From contig NZ_JABEZU010000001.1 of the NCBI RefSeq assembly GCF_013149785.1, positions 992,001 to 1,056,000 of the forward strand: a DNA stretch of 64,000 nt, written 5' to 3'. Under the pieces are notes generated by a model, which was not told the DNA's origin, searched no databases, and worked only from the letters and a program-made list of their open reading frames with translations. Below, one piece after another: positions 4,745 to 36,957 of this stretch. Position numbers and translations under genes: made by a program. The stretch's first letter is position 1. Each line of letters opens with the position of its first letter. Origin of the DNA: Isoptericola halotolerans (GTDB taxonomy: Bacteria > Actinomycetota > Actinomycetes > Actinomycetales > Cellulomonadaceae).

Positions 4745-6283
4745 ATGACGAGCTCCGAGACGGTGGAGCGGCCTGTCGTCGAGATGACCGGGATCTCCAT
4801 CGAGTTCCCCGGCGTCAAGGCGCTCGACCAGGTCGACCTCCGCCTGCTCCCCGGCGAGGTGCACGCCCTGATGGGCGAGAACGGCGCCGGCAAGTCCACC
4901 CTGATCAAGGCGCTCACCGGCGTCTACGACATCGACGCCGGGCAGATCCGCGTCGACGGTGCGCACCACCGGTTCTCCGGTCCCGGCGAGGCCCAGTCCG
5001 CCGGCATCGCGACGGTGTACCAGGAGGTCAACCTCTGCGAGAACCTCACCGTCGCCGAGAACATCATGCTGGGCAACGAGCCACGGCGGTTCGGTGCGAT
5101 CGACTGGCGTGCCACCCGCAGGGAGGCCGCCCGCCACCTGGCCACCATGGGCCTCGACATCGACCCGTCGTCGTCGCTCGGTGCGCACTCGATCGCGGTG
5201 CAGCAGCTGGTGGCGATCAGTCGCGCGATGGTCGTCGAGGCGAAGGTCCTCATCCTCGACGAGCCCACGTCCAGCCTCGACGCCGACGAGGTGGCCCAGC
5301 TCTTCGCCGTCGTGCGCAGGCTGCGCGACGAGGGCGTGGCGATCCTGTTCGTCTCGCACTTCATCGAGCAGGTGTACGAGATCTCCGACCGGATGACGGT
5401 GCTGCGCAACGGCCGGCGCATCGGGGAGTACCTCACGGCCGAGACGGACCGGGTCGAGCTGGTCTCCACGATGATCGGCCGCTCGATGGAGGTGCTCGAG
5501 GACCTGCACGTCACGACCGACCGGGCCGTGCAGATCGAGCGCGGCAACGCCCCGTTCCTGCAGGCCGTGGGTCTCGGGCGCAAGGGGAGCGTCCAGCCGT
5601 TCGACCTGGACGTCTACGCGGGGGAGGTCGTGGGCCTGGCCGGGCTGCTCGGCTCGGGACGGACCGAGGTCGCTCGCCTGCTGGCGGGTGCGGACCGCTC
5701 CGACGAGGGGTCCACGCAGATCAAGGGGCTCCCGGCCCGGCTGGGCACCCCCCGGGCCGCGATCGCCCGGGGAATCGCCTTCTCCTCGGAGGACCGCAAG
5801 GCCGAGGGCGTCGTGGGTGACCTCACCGTCCGCGAGAACATCGTCCTGGGCCTCCAGGCCGGTCGCGGCTGGATGCGTCGCCTGCCGAGCCGCCAGGTCG
5901 ACGAGATCGTCACGAAGTACATCCGGGCGCTGAACATCCGCCCGGCCAACCCGCAGGCCCTGCTGCGCAACCTCTCCGGCGGGAACCAGCAGAAGGTGCT
6001 GCTCGCCCGATGGCTGGCGACGGCGCCGCAGCTGCTCATACTGGACGAGCCGACGCGCGGCATCGACGTCGGTGCCAAGGCGGAGATCCAGAAGCTCGTC
6101 GCCGAGCTCGCCGGCCAGGGCATGGGCGTCGTGTTCATCTCGGCGGAGCTGGAGGAGGTCCTGCGGCTCAGCCACCGGATCGCCGTGATGCGCGACCGGG
6201 AGAAGGTGGCCGAGGTGGTCAACACCGAGGATGTCGGGGTCGACGACGTCGTCGACCTCATCGCGAGTGGAGGGAAGCACTGA
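4745..6283 (+). CDS. Sugar ABC transporter ATPase, YtfR-like (second copy)
   Basis: A 512-residue tandem ATPase. Walker A GENGAGKST, a relaxed first signature (HSIAVQQLVAISRA) and Walker B LILDEPTSSLD are in the first half; LSGGNQQK and LILDEPTRGID are in the second. GGAAGG lies 6 nt before ATG 4745. It is coupled to the downstream permease through a TGATG overlap, so this is the ATPase proper to the YtfQRT/YjfF importer. It resembles the 1883-3451 protein throughout, and the two look like paralogues. Confidence 0.92.
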   Translation: MTSSETVERPVVEMTGISIEFPGVKALDQVDLRLLPGEVHALMGENGAGKSTLIKALTGVYDIDAGQIRVDGAHHRFSGPGEAQSAGIATVYQEVNLCENLTVAENIMLGNEPRRFGAIDWRATRREAARHLATMGLDIDPSSSLGAHSIAVQQLVAISRAMVVEAKVLILDEPTSSLDADEVAQLFAVVRRLRDEGVAILFVSHFIEQVYEISDRMTVLRNGRRIGEYLTAETDRVELVSTMIGRSMEVLEDLHVTTDRAVQIERGNAPFLQAVGLGRKGSVQPFDLDVYAGEVVGLAGLLGSGRTEVARLLAGADRSDEGSTQIKGLPARLGTPRAAIARGIAFSSEDRKAEGVVGDLTVRENIVLGLQAGRGWMRRLPSRQVDEIVTKYIRALNIRPANPQALLRNLSGGNQQKVLLARWLATAPQLLILDEPTRGIDVGAKAEIQKLVAELAGQGMGVVFISAELEEVLRLSHRIAVMRDREKVAEVVNTEDVGVDDVVDLIASGGKH

Positions 6284-32203: not shown

Positions 32204-32349
32204 GGCGCCCTTCGCCCTGAGGCCCCGGGCACCTGACGTGGTCAGAGTTCCGCTGCTGGTCATCTCGGCGTCGGCCAGGTGTCGTCCGACGCTGGTGGTA
32301 TCTCCCTGGACGAGCTCGTCACACGTCCGCCGACCACGGGAGGCCAAGG

Positions 32350-33588
32350 ATGAGCGAGACGAAGGCGCCGGAGCGGGAGCCTGAACCGACGGACGTCCGT
32401 CAGCAGGCCCGAAGTGTCACGTTGCGCAGCCCGCTCGAACGCCTCGGGCTGCGTGGACGGACGTTGGACGTCGCGAACTGGGTCTCCGTCGCGGCATCGA
32501 TCTACTTGCTGATCACCGCGGTCAACATCATCGGCTCGGGGTTCAAGACGGCGACGGGCGACAGCGCGGACGGCGTGTTCGCCTTCGCGTCCAACCCGTT
32601 CGTCGCCCTGATGATCGGGGTGCTCTTCACCGCGTTGACGCAGTCCAGCTCGACGACGACGTCGGTGACGGTCGGCCTGGTGGCCGGCGGCATGCCGATC
32701 CAGATCGCGATCCCGATGCTCATGGGTGCCAACATCGGGACCACGCTGACGAACACGCTGGTCAGCCTCGGCATGGCGCGGGACCGGGAGAACTTCCGCC
32801 GTGCCTTCTCGGCCGCCACCGTGCACGACTTCTTCAACCTCCTGGCGGTGCTGATCTTCCTGCCCCTGGAGATGGCCTTCGGGCTCCTGCAGCGAACCTC
32901 CGCGGTGATGGCCGAGTGGTCGTCGGGAACCGACGGCGGCGTCGTGGCCACGGTGTTCACCGGGATCGGCACGGTGGTCGGCGCCGTGACGAAGCCGCTG
33001 TCCGACCTGGTCAAGGACAGCACGGACTCCCTGCCCGACCTGTGGCAGGGGATCGTCATGATCGTGCTGGGGATCTCGCTGATCCTGTGGGTGATCAACC
33101 TCGTCGGCAGGCTCCTGAAGGTCCTCATGGTCGGCAGGGCCGCCGCCGTGCTGCACACCGCCATCGGGCGCGGGCCGGTGACGGGCATCGGCAGCGGCGC
33201 GGTGGTCACGGTCATGGTGCAGTCCAGCTCGACGACGACGAGCCTCATGATCCCCCTGGCGGGCTCGGGTGTGTTCTCCCTGAGGCAGATCTACCCGTTC
33301 ACCGTCGGAGCCAACATCGGCACCACGATCACCGCGCTCATCGCGGCGTTCGGCTTCACCGGCGTCGAGGCGGAGGCGGCGCTGCAGGCCGCGTACGTGC
33401 ACATGATGTTCAACGTCTACGCCACGTTGCTCATCTTCGGACTGCCCTTCCTGCGGGTGCTGCCCGTGCGGGGCGCCGAGTGGCTCGGCCGGGTAGCCAG
33501 CGTCAACAAGCTGTGGGCGGCCGCCTGGGTGCTCGGCGTGTTCGTCGCGATCCCGCTGACCCTGATCTTTGTCACCGCGGTCCTCTGA
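32350..33588 (+). CDS. Na+/phosphate cotransporter, NptA-like (copy 1)
   Basis: A 412-residue SLC34-like Na/Pi symporter. The two inverted repeats characteristic of the family are obvious: QSSSTTTS at residue 98 and again at 291, each followed by GANIGTT (126 and 320). GGGAGG lies before ATG 32350. It is followed after 23 nt by a small coiled-coil protein gene. A second cotransporter of identical length with its own small protein lies 1.5 kb downstream, so the module is duplicated. Confidence 0.93.
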   Translation: MSETKAPEREPEPTDVRQQARSVTLRSPLERLGLRGRTLDVANWVSVAASIYLLITAVNIIGSGFKTATGDSADGVFAFASNPFVALMIGVLFTALTQSSSTTTSVTVGLVAGGMPIQIAIPMLMGANIGTTLTNTLVSLGMARDRENFRRAFSAATVHDFFNLLAVLIFLPLEMAFGLLQRTSAVMAEWSSGTDGGVVATVFTGIGTVVGAVTKPLSDLVKDSTDSLPDLWQGIVMIVLGISLILWVINLVGRLLKVLMVGRAAAVLHTAIGRGPVTGIGSGAVVTVMVQSSSTTTSLMIPLAGSGVFSLRQIYPFTVGANIGTTITALIAAFGFTGVEAEAALQAAYVHMMFNVYATLLIFGLPFLRVLPVRGAEWLGRVASVNKLWAAAWVLGVFVAIPLTLIFVTAVL

Positions 33589-33611
33589 CCGCTCGAGGAG
33601 ACGAGTACGCC

Positions 33612-33917
33612 ATGACGGAAGCCCCTAGCCCTGGCCTGCGGGAGCACGAACGCGAGCTGGCCGCGATCCTCGACGAGGCCGAGCAGCGGATCGGTGAGCT
33701 CCGGCTCGAGCTGTCGCGCCGGGAGGACCTGTCGGCTCAGCACGCGGAGCTCGACCGGTTGGACGAGCACCTGGCGACGGCCAGGGTGAGCTGGAGCGAG
33801 GTGCGCGGCTTCTTCGACGACGTGCTCCACCAGCTCCGTGGGCGCGGGAACCCGCCGGCCGGGGACGAGGCTCCCGGAGGGCTCCGGGCCGCGGGACGGG
33901 AGCACGACGATGCGTGA
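33612..33917 (+). CDS. Small coiled-coil protein, partner of cotransporter 1
   Basis: A 101-residue soluble, highly charged helical protein of unknown function. The core ELDRLDEHLATARVSW followed by EVRGFFDDVLHQLR is strongly conserved in the protein at 36332-36592, which likewise follows a cotransporter. The C-terminal tail here is longer and Gly/Asp-rich. It overlaps the start of the PstS-like gene by 8 nt. A role in regulating or assembling the transporter is inference. Confidence 0.8.
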   Translation: MTEAPSPGLREHERELAAILDEAEQRIGELRLELSRREDLSAQHAELDRLDEHLATARVSWSEVRGFFDDVLHQLRGRGNPPAGDEAPGGLRAAGREHDDA

Positions 33918-34905
33918 GCGCAGGATGTCCGGCGTGGTGGCCGCCGCTGCGGTGGCTGGCGTCCTGCTCGCGGGTTGCGGGACCGGTCCGACGGCGACCG
34001 CAGGCGGTACCGGGTTGCTGGTGTCGGGGTCGAGCACGGTCGCCCCCATCACCCAGGCGGTGGCGCGCGACGGCCGGTTCGACGTCGACGTCGCGGCCGA
34101 GGGGACCACCGACGGCTTCGAGCGGTTCTGCCGGGGCGAGACCGTCGTCAACAACGCCTCCGAGGCGATCCCCGGGCCTGCCGAACCCGTCGACTACATG
34201 GCGTTGTGCGACGAGCACGGCGTGGAGTACGTCGAGCTGCCGGTCGCCCTCGACGCGCTGAGCGTCGTGCGTCATGTCGACGCGGACTTCGTCGACGGGC
34301 TGACGTCCGCCGAGCTGCAGGCCATCTGGTCGCCGGGAACGTCGGTGCGGACGTGGGCCGACGTCCGGCCGGAGTGGCCCGACCGGGAGATCTCGTTCTA
34401 CGGCCGGCCGCCGGGCTCGGGCACCTTCGACTGGTTCACGCACCGCGTGGTCGGCGAGACCGGCGCGGTGCGGAGCGACCTGCGTGGTACCGATGACATG
34501 GACCAGCTGGCAGCGTGGGTGGCCGGCGACCCGGACGCGCTGGCGTTCATGGGGGTCGGCAGCTATCTCGCTGCCGACGAGGGCCATCGGGACCAAATGA
34601 CGAACATCGACGTCGACGGCGTCGCCCCGACCCTGGAGAACGCCCGGTCCGGCGACTACGGGCTGGCACGACCGCTGTTCATCTATGTCTCGGCCGACGC
34701 GCTGGCGGAGGACGAGGAGGTGGAGCGGTTCGCCGAGCACTACCTGGACGCGGTGGCGACGGTGCTGCCGAGCACCTACTTCTATCCGTTGCCCGACGAG
34801 GCCTCCGAACGGGTGGAGCAGCGGCTCCAGGACCGCCTGACCGGCAGCGTCTACGCCGGCGACCCGTTCCGGCCGGACTCGATCGTCACGCTGCTCGGCG
34901 GGTGA
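33910..34905 (+). CDS. PstS-like phosphate-binding lipoprotein (orphan)
   Basis: A 331-residue lipoprotein with lipobox LAGC (Cys 23). The mature N-terminus VSGSSTVAPIT is the phosphate-binding loop of PstS-type proteins; PPGSGTFDWF is a second binding block. No pstC, pstA or pstB is nearby. ATG 33910 overlaps the preceding small gene and has GGGAG upstream. Lying between two Na/Pi cotransporters, it may scavenge or sense phosphate for them. Confidence 0.85.
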   Translation: MRERRMSGVVAAAAVAGVLLAGCGTGPTATAGGTGLLVSGSSTVAPITQAVARDGRFDVDVAAEGTTDGFERFCRGETVVNNASEAIPGPAEPVDYMALCDEHGVEYVELPVALDALSVVRHVDADFVDGLTSAELQAIWSPGTSVRTWADVRPEWPDREISFYGRPPGSGTFDWFTHRVVGETGAVRSDLRGTDDMDQLAAWVAGDPDALAFMGVGSYLAADEGHRDQMTNIDVDGVAPTLENARSGDYGLARPLFIYVSADALAEDEEVERFAEHYLDAVATVLPSTYFYPLPDEASERVEQRLQDRLTGSVYAGDPFRPDSIVTLLGG

Positions 34906-34948
34906 GCGACCAGGTCGAGGTGAACGTGTGATGCACCGAACGGTGCGT

Positions 34949-34970
34949 GTTCATCTTCTGTTCACCTGAG
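34949..34970 (+). promoter_or_regulatory. PHO box before the second cotransporter
   Basis: Two direct 11-nt units, GTTCATCTTCT and GTTCACCTGAG, match the GTTCACC-type direct repeats bound by PhoP in actinobacteria. They lie about 97 nt before ATG 35067. A GCACCG-AA-CGGTGC hairpin (34933-34946) sits just upstream and may end the previous transcript. Confidence 0.65.
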
Positions 34971-35066
34971 GTCCGTGGTGGCGTCATCCAGCACTGGTTC
35001 TCTCGGAGGGTGATGACGAGCAGTGGCCGCCGGAAGGGCGGGTACCTCACCTCGACGGGAGACTCC

Positions 35067-36305
35067 ATGACCGACGTCCTGCCACAGGCGTCCGTGACCT
35101 CCGCCGCACCGACCGCCCCCGCCGAGGGCACGAAGCGGCTGGTCAGCCCGTTCGAGCGGCTGGGGCTGTCGGGCCGTCCGCTGCGGACGGCGAACTGGCT
35201 CGGCGTCGTCGTCGGTGTCTACGTGCTCATCACCGCCGTCGAGCTCATCGGGTCCGGCTTCAAGGTGGCGACCGGTGGCACCGCCGAGTCGCTCTTCGCC
35301 TTCGCCGCGAACCCGTTCGTCGCCCTCATGGTCGGCGTGCTGTTCACCGCGGCGACGCAGTCGAGCTCGACGACGACGTCGGTCACCGTCGGCCTGGTCG
35401 CCGGTGGCCTGCCCATGAGCATCGCCATCCCCATGCTGATGGGTGCCAACATCGGCACCACGCTGACGAACACGCTCGTCAGCCTCGGGATGGTGCGGGA
35501 CAAGGAGAGCTTCCGCCGGGCCTTCTCGGCCGCGACGGTGCACGACTTCTTCAACCTCATCGCCGTCGCGATCTTCCTGCCACTGGAGCTCGCCTTCGGC
35601 GTGCTGCAGCGGTCCTCGGCCTGGCTCGCGGACGCCAGCTCGGGATCTGACGGCGGGTTCGTCGCCACGATCTTCTCCGGCCTCGGTACCGTCGTGGACA
35701 CCCTCACGGAGCCCCTGGCCGACCTGCTCGCGTGGTCGACCTCGTTCTTGCCGGGCGCCTGGCACGGCGTCGCCATGATCGTCCTCGGGATCGGCCTCAT
35801 CCTGGCCGTCATCAACTGGCTCGGCCGACTCCTCAAGGTCCTCATGGTGGGCCGGGCGGCCGAGGTCCTGCACGCCTCCGTGGGGCGCGGTCCCCTCACC
35901 GGCATCGCCAGCGGTGCCGCGATGACCGTCATGGTGCAGTCCTCGTCCACCACGACGAGCCTCATGATCCCGCTGGCCGGGTCCGGGACCTTCTCGCTCA
36001 AGCAGATCTACCCGTTCACGGTCGGTGCCAACATCGGCACCACGATCACCGCGCTGATCGCCGCCTTCGCCTTCACCGGCGTCGAGGGCACGCTCGCGCT
36101 GCAGGCCGCCTACGTGCACCTGCTGTTCAACATCTTCGCCGCCCTGGTGGTCTTCGGGATGCCGCTGCTGCGCCAGCTCCCGCTGCGTGGCGCGACGTGG
36201 CTCGGTAACGTCGCCGCCACGAACAAGCTGTGGGCCGCGGCCTGGGTGCTGGGCGTGTTCGTCGGGATCCCGCTGGCGCTCATCGGCATCACGACCGTCC
36301 TGTGA
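35067..36305 (+). CDS. Na+/phosphate cotransporter, NptA-like (copy 2)
   Basis: A 412-residue paralogue of the 32350 gene, nearly colinear along its length, with both QSSSTTTS and both GANIGTT motifs. ATG 35067 has GGGAG upstream; earlier in-frame starts would overlap the PHO box. A PhoP-type site in its promoter points to induction under phosphate starvation, unlike copy 1, whose upstream region shows no such site. Confidence 0.93.
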   Translation: MTDVLPQASVTSAAPTAPAEGTKRLVSPFERLGLSGRPLRTANWLGVVVGVYVLITAVELIGSGFKVATGGTAESLFAFAANPFVALMVGVLFTAATQSSSTTTSVTVGLVAGGLPMSIAIPMLMGANIGTTLTNTLVSLGMVRDKESFRRAFSAATVHDFFNLIAVAIFLPLELAFGVLQRSSAWLADASSGSDGGFVATIFSGLGTVVDTLTEPLADLLAWSTSFLPGAWHGVAMIVLGIGLILAVINWLGRLLKVLMVGRAAEVLHASVGRGPLTGIASGAAMTVMVQSSSTTTSLMIPLAGSGTFSLKQIYPFTVGANIGTTITALIAAFAFTGVEGTLALQAAYVHLLFNIFAALVVFGMPLLRQLPLRGATWLGNVAATNKLWAAAWVLGVFVGIPLALIGITTVL

Positions 36306-36331
36306 GCCTGCACGGATGGGGAGGAAACCCC

Positions 36332-36592
36332 ATGACGAGCGAGAAGCCCGAGGACGCCGCCGCCGTCGAGCGTGAGCTGGAGCGGATCGTCGCCGAGGCA
36401 GAGGCCAAGCTGGCCGAGGTCCGCCGTGAGCTCGCCGAGCGGCGCCGGCAGGACGCCCAGCACGCCGAGATCGACCGGCTCGAGGAGCACCTGGCCAACG
36501 CCACCGTCCGGTGGGAAGAGGTGCGCTCGTTCTTCGACGACGTGCTGACACAGCTCCGCCGGCACGACGACGGCGAGCACCTGTCCGAGTGA
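36332..36592 (+). CDS. Small coiled-coil protein, partner of cotransporter 2
   Basis: An 86-residue charged helical protein, paralogous to 33612-33917 across the core (EIDRLEEHLANATVRW, then EVRSFFDDVLTQLR). GGGGAGG lies upstream of ATG 36332, 26 nt after the cotransporter. It has no membrane segment. The conserved pairing with the cotransporter in both modules is the main clue to its role. Confidence 0.8.
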   Translation: MTSEKPEDAAAVERELERIVAEAEAKLAEVRRELAERRRQDAQHAEIDRLEEHLANATVRWEEVRSFFDDVLTQLRRHDDGEHLSE

Positions 36593-36720: not shown

Positions 36721-36957
36721 GTGACGCTGCAGGCCGCCACCCCCGTGACGGCGTCCGTCATCGGTCAGGTCCCCGCCGAGTACGAGGGGGAGGGCCCGCG
36801 CGCGTACCTGCTGGTCGACCACATGACCCGCTGGTTCCCCGACTCCGTCTCGGCGGACAACTACCGGTTCTGGGTGCCACCGGACAGGGCTGACGAGCTG
36901 GCGACGGTGCTCGCCCGGGACCTGACGGCCGCCGGGGCACCGTTCTCCGTGGACTGA
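36721..36957 (+). CDS. Small hypothetical protein
   Basis: A 78-residue frame from GTG 36721 with protein-like composition (AYLLVDHMTRWFPDSVSADN) and coding-type third-position GC. No ribosome-binding site is obvious. A different frame beginning at GTG 36645 has GAGGAG upstream but an implausible Arg/Pro/Gly-rich product. Function unknown; it may be a real small gene or a remnant. Confidence 0.4.
   Translation: MTLQAATPVTASVIGQVPAEYEGEGPRAYLLVDHMTRWFPDSVSADNYRFWVPPDRADELATVLARDLTAAGAPFSVD

Follow-up and report, generated by a model that had tools for sequence, protein, structure and literature searches.

In a 64 kb stretch of the Isoptericola halotolerans genome (NZ_JABEZU010000001.1, positions 992,001 to 1,056,000; NCBI order Micrococcales), two predicted Na+/phosphate cotransporter genes are each followed immediately by a gene for a small acidic helical protein, and the first of these pairs is extended by a gene for a PstS-like phosphate-binding lipoprotein. 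This stretch is referred to as the window; all positions are numbered within it, and all five genes, the PHO box and the degenerate PHO-like site lie on its + strand. The cotransporter genes nptA1 (32350-33588) and nptA2 (35067-36305) each encode a protein of 412 aa. The small genes, designated sml1 (33612-33917, 101 aa) and sml2 (36332-36592, 86 aa), begin 23 and 26 nt past their respective transporter genes, and the pstS-like gene (33910-34905, 331 aa, lipobox LAGC) overlaps the end of sml1 by 8 nt. An in-frame GTG at 36302, which overlaps the nptA2 stop codon, is an alternative start for sml2 and would yield a protein of 96 aa. An earlier reading made from the letters of the window without database searches (the sequence-only reading) had reported two cotransporters of identical length, each followed within about 25 nt by a small protein, and both statements agree with the coordinates given here; it overlooked two features, the PstS gene that separates the pairs and a PHO box preceding nptA2. 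The module may represent Na+-coupled inorganic phosphate (Pi) cotransporter operons of the Pho regulon, in which sml would act as a cytoplasmic accessory or regulator of NptA and the PstS of the nptA-sml-pstS triad would capture Pi for NptA. The chances of this reading being right appear to be about even.

The assignment of NptA1 and NptA2 as putative Na+/Pi cotransporters follows from family membership. The two proteins are 75% identical over 388 residues, and both contain two PF02690 repeats (E-values of 2e-33 for NptA1 and 2e-31 for NptA2) with a QSSS motif in each repeat. Both exceed the cut-off of NF037997 (99 and 121 bits; cut-off 50) and score 185 and 177 bits against TIGR01013, under its cut-off of 306; the relative with a solved structure is SLC34 member 2a. 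Pfam and NCBIfam scans detected no PhoU domain in either protein, a trait shared with NptA.v, the Vibrio cholerae type of NptA, as this is described in PMC13170248. NptA1 is 56-59% identical (over 87% coverage) to homologues from Pseudoalteromonas and Aeromonas, which we infer to be NptA.v proteins. The two gammaproteobacterial NptAs examined for gene context (57-59% identical to NptA1 over 87%) differ in having no sml or PstS gene in the surrounding 9 kb, and they lack an actinobacterial-type PHO box. Ten orthologues of NptA2 were identified in the same genus (75-92% identity), and no third PF02690 gene was found elsewhere in the genome.

From the repetition of the pair, the sequence-only reading proposed a joint function of the small protein and the transporter, and the gene neighbourhoods strongly support this proposal. 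The pairing holds independently of the duplication in the window, and the neighbourhood check set out in that reading came out in its favour. Within the actinobacterial NptA clade, for which 33 loci were counted (the two window copies included), sml lies directly 3' of NptA in 25. The gap between the two genes is -7 to +34 nt in 23 fetched loci, with a 4-nt GTGA overlap occurring frequently; these distances take the first in-frame start codon as the sml start, and the true starts possibly lie further in. Within the family, 150 genomes were searched: profile A1 of sml matched 11 (nine from the same genus, G124 from another genus, and G083 with a weak match containing an internal stop), and a search with NptA2 found matches in 17. 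Across 396 genomes of the order, profile A2 matched 24 at E<=0.01, of which 15 were strong matches (E<1e-14, a cut chosen post hoc from the gap that reaches down to 6e-4). All 15 of these genomes have an NptA adjoining the sml, with NptA present in 18 of the 396; six of the 15 had contributed rows to the profile and nine had contributed none. The remaining nine genomes, with weak matches (E 0.0017-0.01), contain no NptA at E<=1e-20, and these matches look like chance; on this basis the possibility that sml is a widespread coiled coil was rejected. In G221 a second, weak sml match (E 6e-4) falls within a frame of 589 aa.

Genomes with NptA were also found in further families (f13, 6/24; f11, 2/47; f7, 1/60; f6, 11/119), with f6 contributing G945, five g367 genomes whose sml is diverged and four g66 genomes that have none. 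In the g367 loci (L152-L156) sml is strongly diverged and carries an additional stretch ahead of its QHAEI core, with the core and the gene position retained. No sml was found at E<=0.01 beside more distant NptAs (39-44% identity) from other classes of the phylum; of 31 such genomes, 29 supplied the 29 loci searched (L098-L126, up to 1.5 kb on each side), and the best E-values were 0.06 with profile A2 and 0.49 with profile A5. Nor was one found in five g10 loci (one of them cut by a contig end), at G274, or on plasmids by tblastn. In a tree that includes the gammaproteobacterial NptAs, the actinobacterial loci form one clade (support 98/89) from which the sml-bearing G124 splits off first, on a long branch and with a support of 84/69 that makes this position unsure. 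The presence of sml is clustered on the first NptA tree, requiring 4 changes versus 11.0 in shuffles. Sml was probably present early in the actinobacterial NptA clade and then lost at least twice.

Conserved adjacency might also arise if sml and PstS were bystanders, historical neighbours that do not work with NptA. Vertical inheritance of an operon can retain such genes, and sml is missing from eight of the 33 clade loci; against this, the linkage to NptA is kept in four families while the surrounding genes differ, the tight or overlapping spacing recurs, and no strong sml match occurs away from NptA in the 396 genomes, a search whose profile lacked the diverged g367 forms and which a diverged sml away from NptA could escape. 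A bystander origin is thereby judged very unlikely.

The sequence-only reading had credited the two small proteins with a shared core of about 35 residues; the core is real and longer than that, as 40 of 64 residues (63%) are identical between sml1 and sml2 (BLASTP E 7e-25 as a single comparison). The ratio of nonsynonymous to synonymous substitution rates (dN/dS) for sml2 against three Isoptericola orthologues is 0.14-0.20, with the differences mostly at third codon positions, and the six comparisons among four sml2 orthologues give 0.08-0.22. These low ratios and the concentration of changes at third positions indicate that sml2 is a real gene under purifying selection. The 25 sml sequences are 81-130 aa in length with isoelectric points of 4.5-7.0, nearly all being acidic, and the highest 19-residue hydropathy is at most 0.89 in all 25, leaving no transmembrane-like stretch. 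Because no hydrophobic stretch is present, sml is predicted to be soluble and cytoplasmic. An AlphaFold2 monomer model built with seven sequences contains only two helices, residues 6-56 and 61-81, at a mean predicted local distance difference test score (pLDDT) of 86 and a predicted template modelling score (pTM) of 0.47. In alignment A5, whose 26 rows represent 25 distinct genes, two residues (L54 and W61) show no variation and eight others (L16, E33, Q43, H44, E46, R49, H53 and F67) are nearly invariant, giving the consensus QHAEI.RL..HL..A.V.W..V..FF; the second helix is amphipathic as judged by eye. Neither sml1 nor sml2 matched a Pfam or NCBIfam family above chance. A Pfam scan of the 26 rows returned 63 scattered families at E<=0.1, and among the 25 listed none was matched by more than seven rows (best E 2e-4); an NCBIfam scan of the same rows likewise gave only scattered matches. 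The top matches of a profile search against the PDB were unrelated coiled coils (best E 0.004). Sml is apparently a small helical protein that has not been described so far.

The sequence-only reading also likened the small protein to a minimal PhoU. PhoU domains are repeats of a three-helix bundle, and sml does resemble them in being helical, acidic and linked to a phosphate transporter. However, PF01895 (PhoU) had no match to sml1 or sml2 at E<=1, PhoU is absent from the 25 families listed of the 63 noted above, an hhalign comparison of sml with the PhoU of the same genome gave a probability of 2%, and a Foldseek search of the PDB with the two-helix model found no match. These results largely refute a minimal PhoU by homology, and that sml is a true if reduced PhoU is hardly credible. 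Since NptA itself has no PhoU domain, what is left of the likeness is an analogy in role.

The third gene of the triad encodes a member of the PstS family, matching PF12849 (E 9e-20, 71.9 bits; cut-off 27) and TIGR02136 (E 4e-50, 170.6 bits, under the curated cut-off of 206.6) as well as the phosphate-binding protein 4jwo in the PDB (E 6e-37). It is an orphan, as both complete pstSCAB operons of this genome are located elsewhere, and a search for PstC in the surroundings of all five triads (11-16 kb each, 16 kb for the window) found none. These triads come from four families and comprise the window, G247 and G260 (both f13), G259 (f11) and G945 (f6); in each the PstS start lies 1-8 nt before the sml end. 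Apart from the close pair G247-G260 (97% identity in NptA, 94% in sml and 92% in PstS), the triads are 59-64% identical in NptA, 33-43% in sml and 50-59% in PstS.

Like the Pst-type PstS proteins of TIGR02136, the triad PstS proteins are lipoproteins of the same family that keep the motifs SGT and GSSTV (the latter being GSTTV in one of them). Their genes do not lie beside pstCAB, and the triad proteins differ in the replacement of the arginine of the ASR motif by glutamate, in a new arginine ahead of GSGT, and in a C-terminal extension. The NNASEAI and GR..GSGT motifs and the extension with GDPF occur in 5/5 triad PstS and 0/8 ordinary PstS. The arginine swap may re-create a Pi site resembling the one in E. 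coli PstS, a reading based on the alignment and on the ligands of the E. coli protein. A profile of the five triad PstS rows gave full-length matches of 565-583 bits (E<=1e-40) in four of 258 genomes of the order, all four adjoining nptA-sml and all four being rows of the profile. No triad-type PstS was found in these 258 genomes away from nptA-sml, or in a genome not already known as a triad carrier. The other eight PstS places score 207-246 bits, and PstC adjoins seven of them. The triad PstS proteins constitute a private subfamily. The eighth ordinary PstS (G318, L172 1492-2436) has no PstC and sits in an arsenic-like cluster, its neighbours being an arsenate-reductase-like protein, preceded by an ArsR-like one, and a flavoprotein-like one (names assigned by eye). 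Of the two pstSCAB operons of the genome that holds the window, one (L165, G000 C1:212000-224000) has ArsR-like genes on its flanks, and a domain resembling arsenate reductase is apparently fused to one of these, again by eye.

The orphan PstS might instead feed an ordinary PstCAB transporter, its place in the nptA operon reflecting common Pho control only. The two complete pstSCAB operons could make use of a spare binding protein; this is countered by the confinement of the private subfamily to nptA-sml loci in the 258 genomes searched, and by the position of PstS behind nptA-sml in four families despite the divergence of PstS, sml and NptA. Service to PstCAB is a serious contender, though somewhat short of an even chance.

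Phosphate carriers of the SLC34 type are not known to depend on a binding protein, and no NptA with its own PstS was found in the open-licence literature. The triads provide five loci in four families where a binding protein is encoded alongside a carrier of an ion-coupled family. A review (PMC5812351) recognizes only three binding-protein-dependent transporter families, ABC, TRAP and TTT. If PstS feeds NptA, the principle would be that of TRAP and TTT, a binding protein combined with an ion-driven carrier (PMC5812351); the TRAP and TTT carriers and binding proteins belong to other families, and the nptA-sml-pstS triad has no small membrane subunit with four transmembrane segments. A fourth class, in which PstS would deliver Pi to a Na+-driven SLC34-type carrier gated from the inside by a non-PhoU regulator, is a speculative and rather unlikely extension. 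If true, the private PstS and the Na+/Pi carrier would form a fourth binding-protein-dependent family, and PstS could explain a high affinity of the carrier where phosphate is scarce.

A PHO half-site of the sequence GTTCACC is described for Streptomyces coelicolor in PMC4415409. The pattern of the actinobacterial PHO box, GTTCAYC-N4-GTTCAYC, occurs without mismatch once in the window, at 34949-34966 (GTTCATC-N4-GTTCACC), upstream of nptA2. Of the 31 clade loci fetched, 16 carry a perfect PHO box between -350 and +120 relative to the approximate start of NptA, and no match with up to three mismatches was found in four loci outside the clade. Upstream of nptA1 there is a possible degenerate PHO-like site at 32247-32264, with 3 mismatches, which is weak and at chance level; the window holds 18 sites with three mismatches or better versus 10.4 expected. 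The nptA2-sml2 pair is probably a PhoP-controlled phosphate-starvation operon. A second PHO-like site, inverted and with 1 mismatch (GTGCATCACACGTTCACC or a near variant), is located at 34919-34936, shortly before the PHO box, and likewise in same-genus loci L089, L091, L093 and L157-L160; the operator may be complex.

Under the reading that sml assists NptA and PstS captures its substrate, PhoP would switch on the operon at phosphate shortage, and NptA would import Pi with Na+. Sml, as a soluble helical hairpin, would dock on the cytoplasmic face of NptA and control its activity or stability, standing in for PhoU and doing the job of the fused PhoU domain in the Staphylococcus-type NptA. Where present, the lipid-anchored PstS would capture Pi outside the cell and hand it to NptA, set its affinity, or serve as a sensor. 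Several observations weigh against this reading. Eight clade loci (G110, G116, G452, G943, G961, G980, G999 and G216) have no sml, seven of them being testable, as the contig ends at G216; given these loci and at least two lineages that seemingly lost sml, NptA can work without it. A perfect PHO box is present in five of the eight sml-less loci, which supports the place of NptA in the Pho response and not that of sml, and no good PHO box precedes nptA1. PstS accompanies just five of the 33 clade loci, and dN/dS between sml1 and sml2 is about 0.47. Finally, a role of sml in assembly would fit as well as one in regulation.

In such a role sml would help NptA to assemble or would stabilise it, as a small structural subunit that neither regulates nor senses. 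The constant position of sml past nptA, often overlapping it or nearly so (-7 to 34 nt), and the amphipathic second helix with W61 and F67 invariant or nearly so would suit a structural subunit. The near-invariance of the polar residues Q43, H44, E46, R49 and H53, by contrast, is unusual for a plain coiled coil and suggests a ligand or a specific interface, and NptA persists in the seven testable loci without sml. A purely structural sml is accordingly regarded as possible, though unlikely.

Precedents for an accessory protein of a phosphate importer are available, and in PMC13170248 three accessory-importer pairs are described, each importer family having its own accessory. Staphylococcus aureus NptA (PMC13170248) offers a parallel as a Na/Pi transporter whose accessory influences Pi homeostasis, as sml may do here; that accessory is a fused C-terminal PhoU homologue, whereas sml is a separate protein with no detectable PhoU similarity. 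SCO1846 of Streptomyces, noted there for its place beside PitA and its presence in PitA genomes without PitR, resembles sml as a small non-PhoU protein adjoining a phosphate transporter (PMC13170248). It is described as a membrane protein encoded beside pitA, whereas sml is hydrophilic and encoded beside nptA; the two are set apart here by description, not by sequence. No described NptA partner of the sml kind was found in the open-licence literature, as the sequence-only reading had supposed. If the proposed role is correct, sml would be a phosphate-transport accessory unrelated to PhoU, in keeping with the report of one accessory per importer family (PMC13170248). The association of NptA with sml and, in some lineages, with its own PstS is a hint that some actinobacteria may take up phosphate with machinery of unfamiliar composition.

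The origin of the two copies was addressed with the NptA trees. NptA1 branches outside the eleven other same-genus NptAs, NptA2 included, with moderate support in two trees (88/85 and 89/87). NptA is present in 11 genomes of the genus, and this is the only one of them with two copies, and five loci from named Isoptericola (L005-L009) contain a single nptA-sml pair within 5 kb upstream of sml. A recent tandem duplication is disfavoured by these trees, at their moderate support. The triad copy (nptA1) looks like either an old paralogue retained only here among the sampled genomes or a transferred operon, which makes the earlier suggestion of a pair conserved through duplication weaker than it had seemed.

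Immediately 3' of sml2, at 36721-36957, is an open frame of 78 aa with a coding-like G+C content at third codon positions and no family match in Pfam and NCBIfam scans. At the L009 locus of Isoptericola sp. BMS4, a near-perfect inverted repeat of ~65 bases begins at 5311, just 3' of sml, and is perhaps a terminator or a mobile palindrome.

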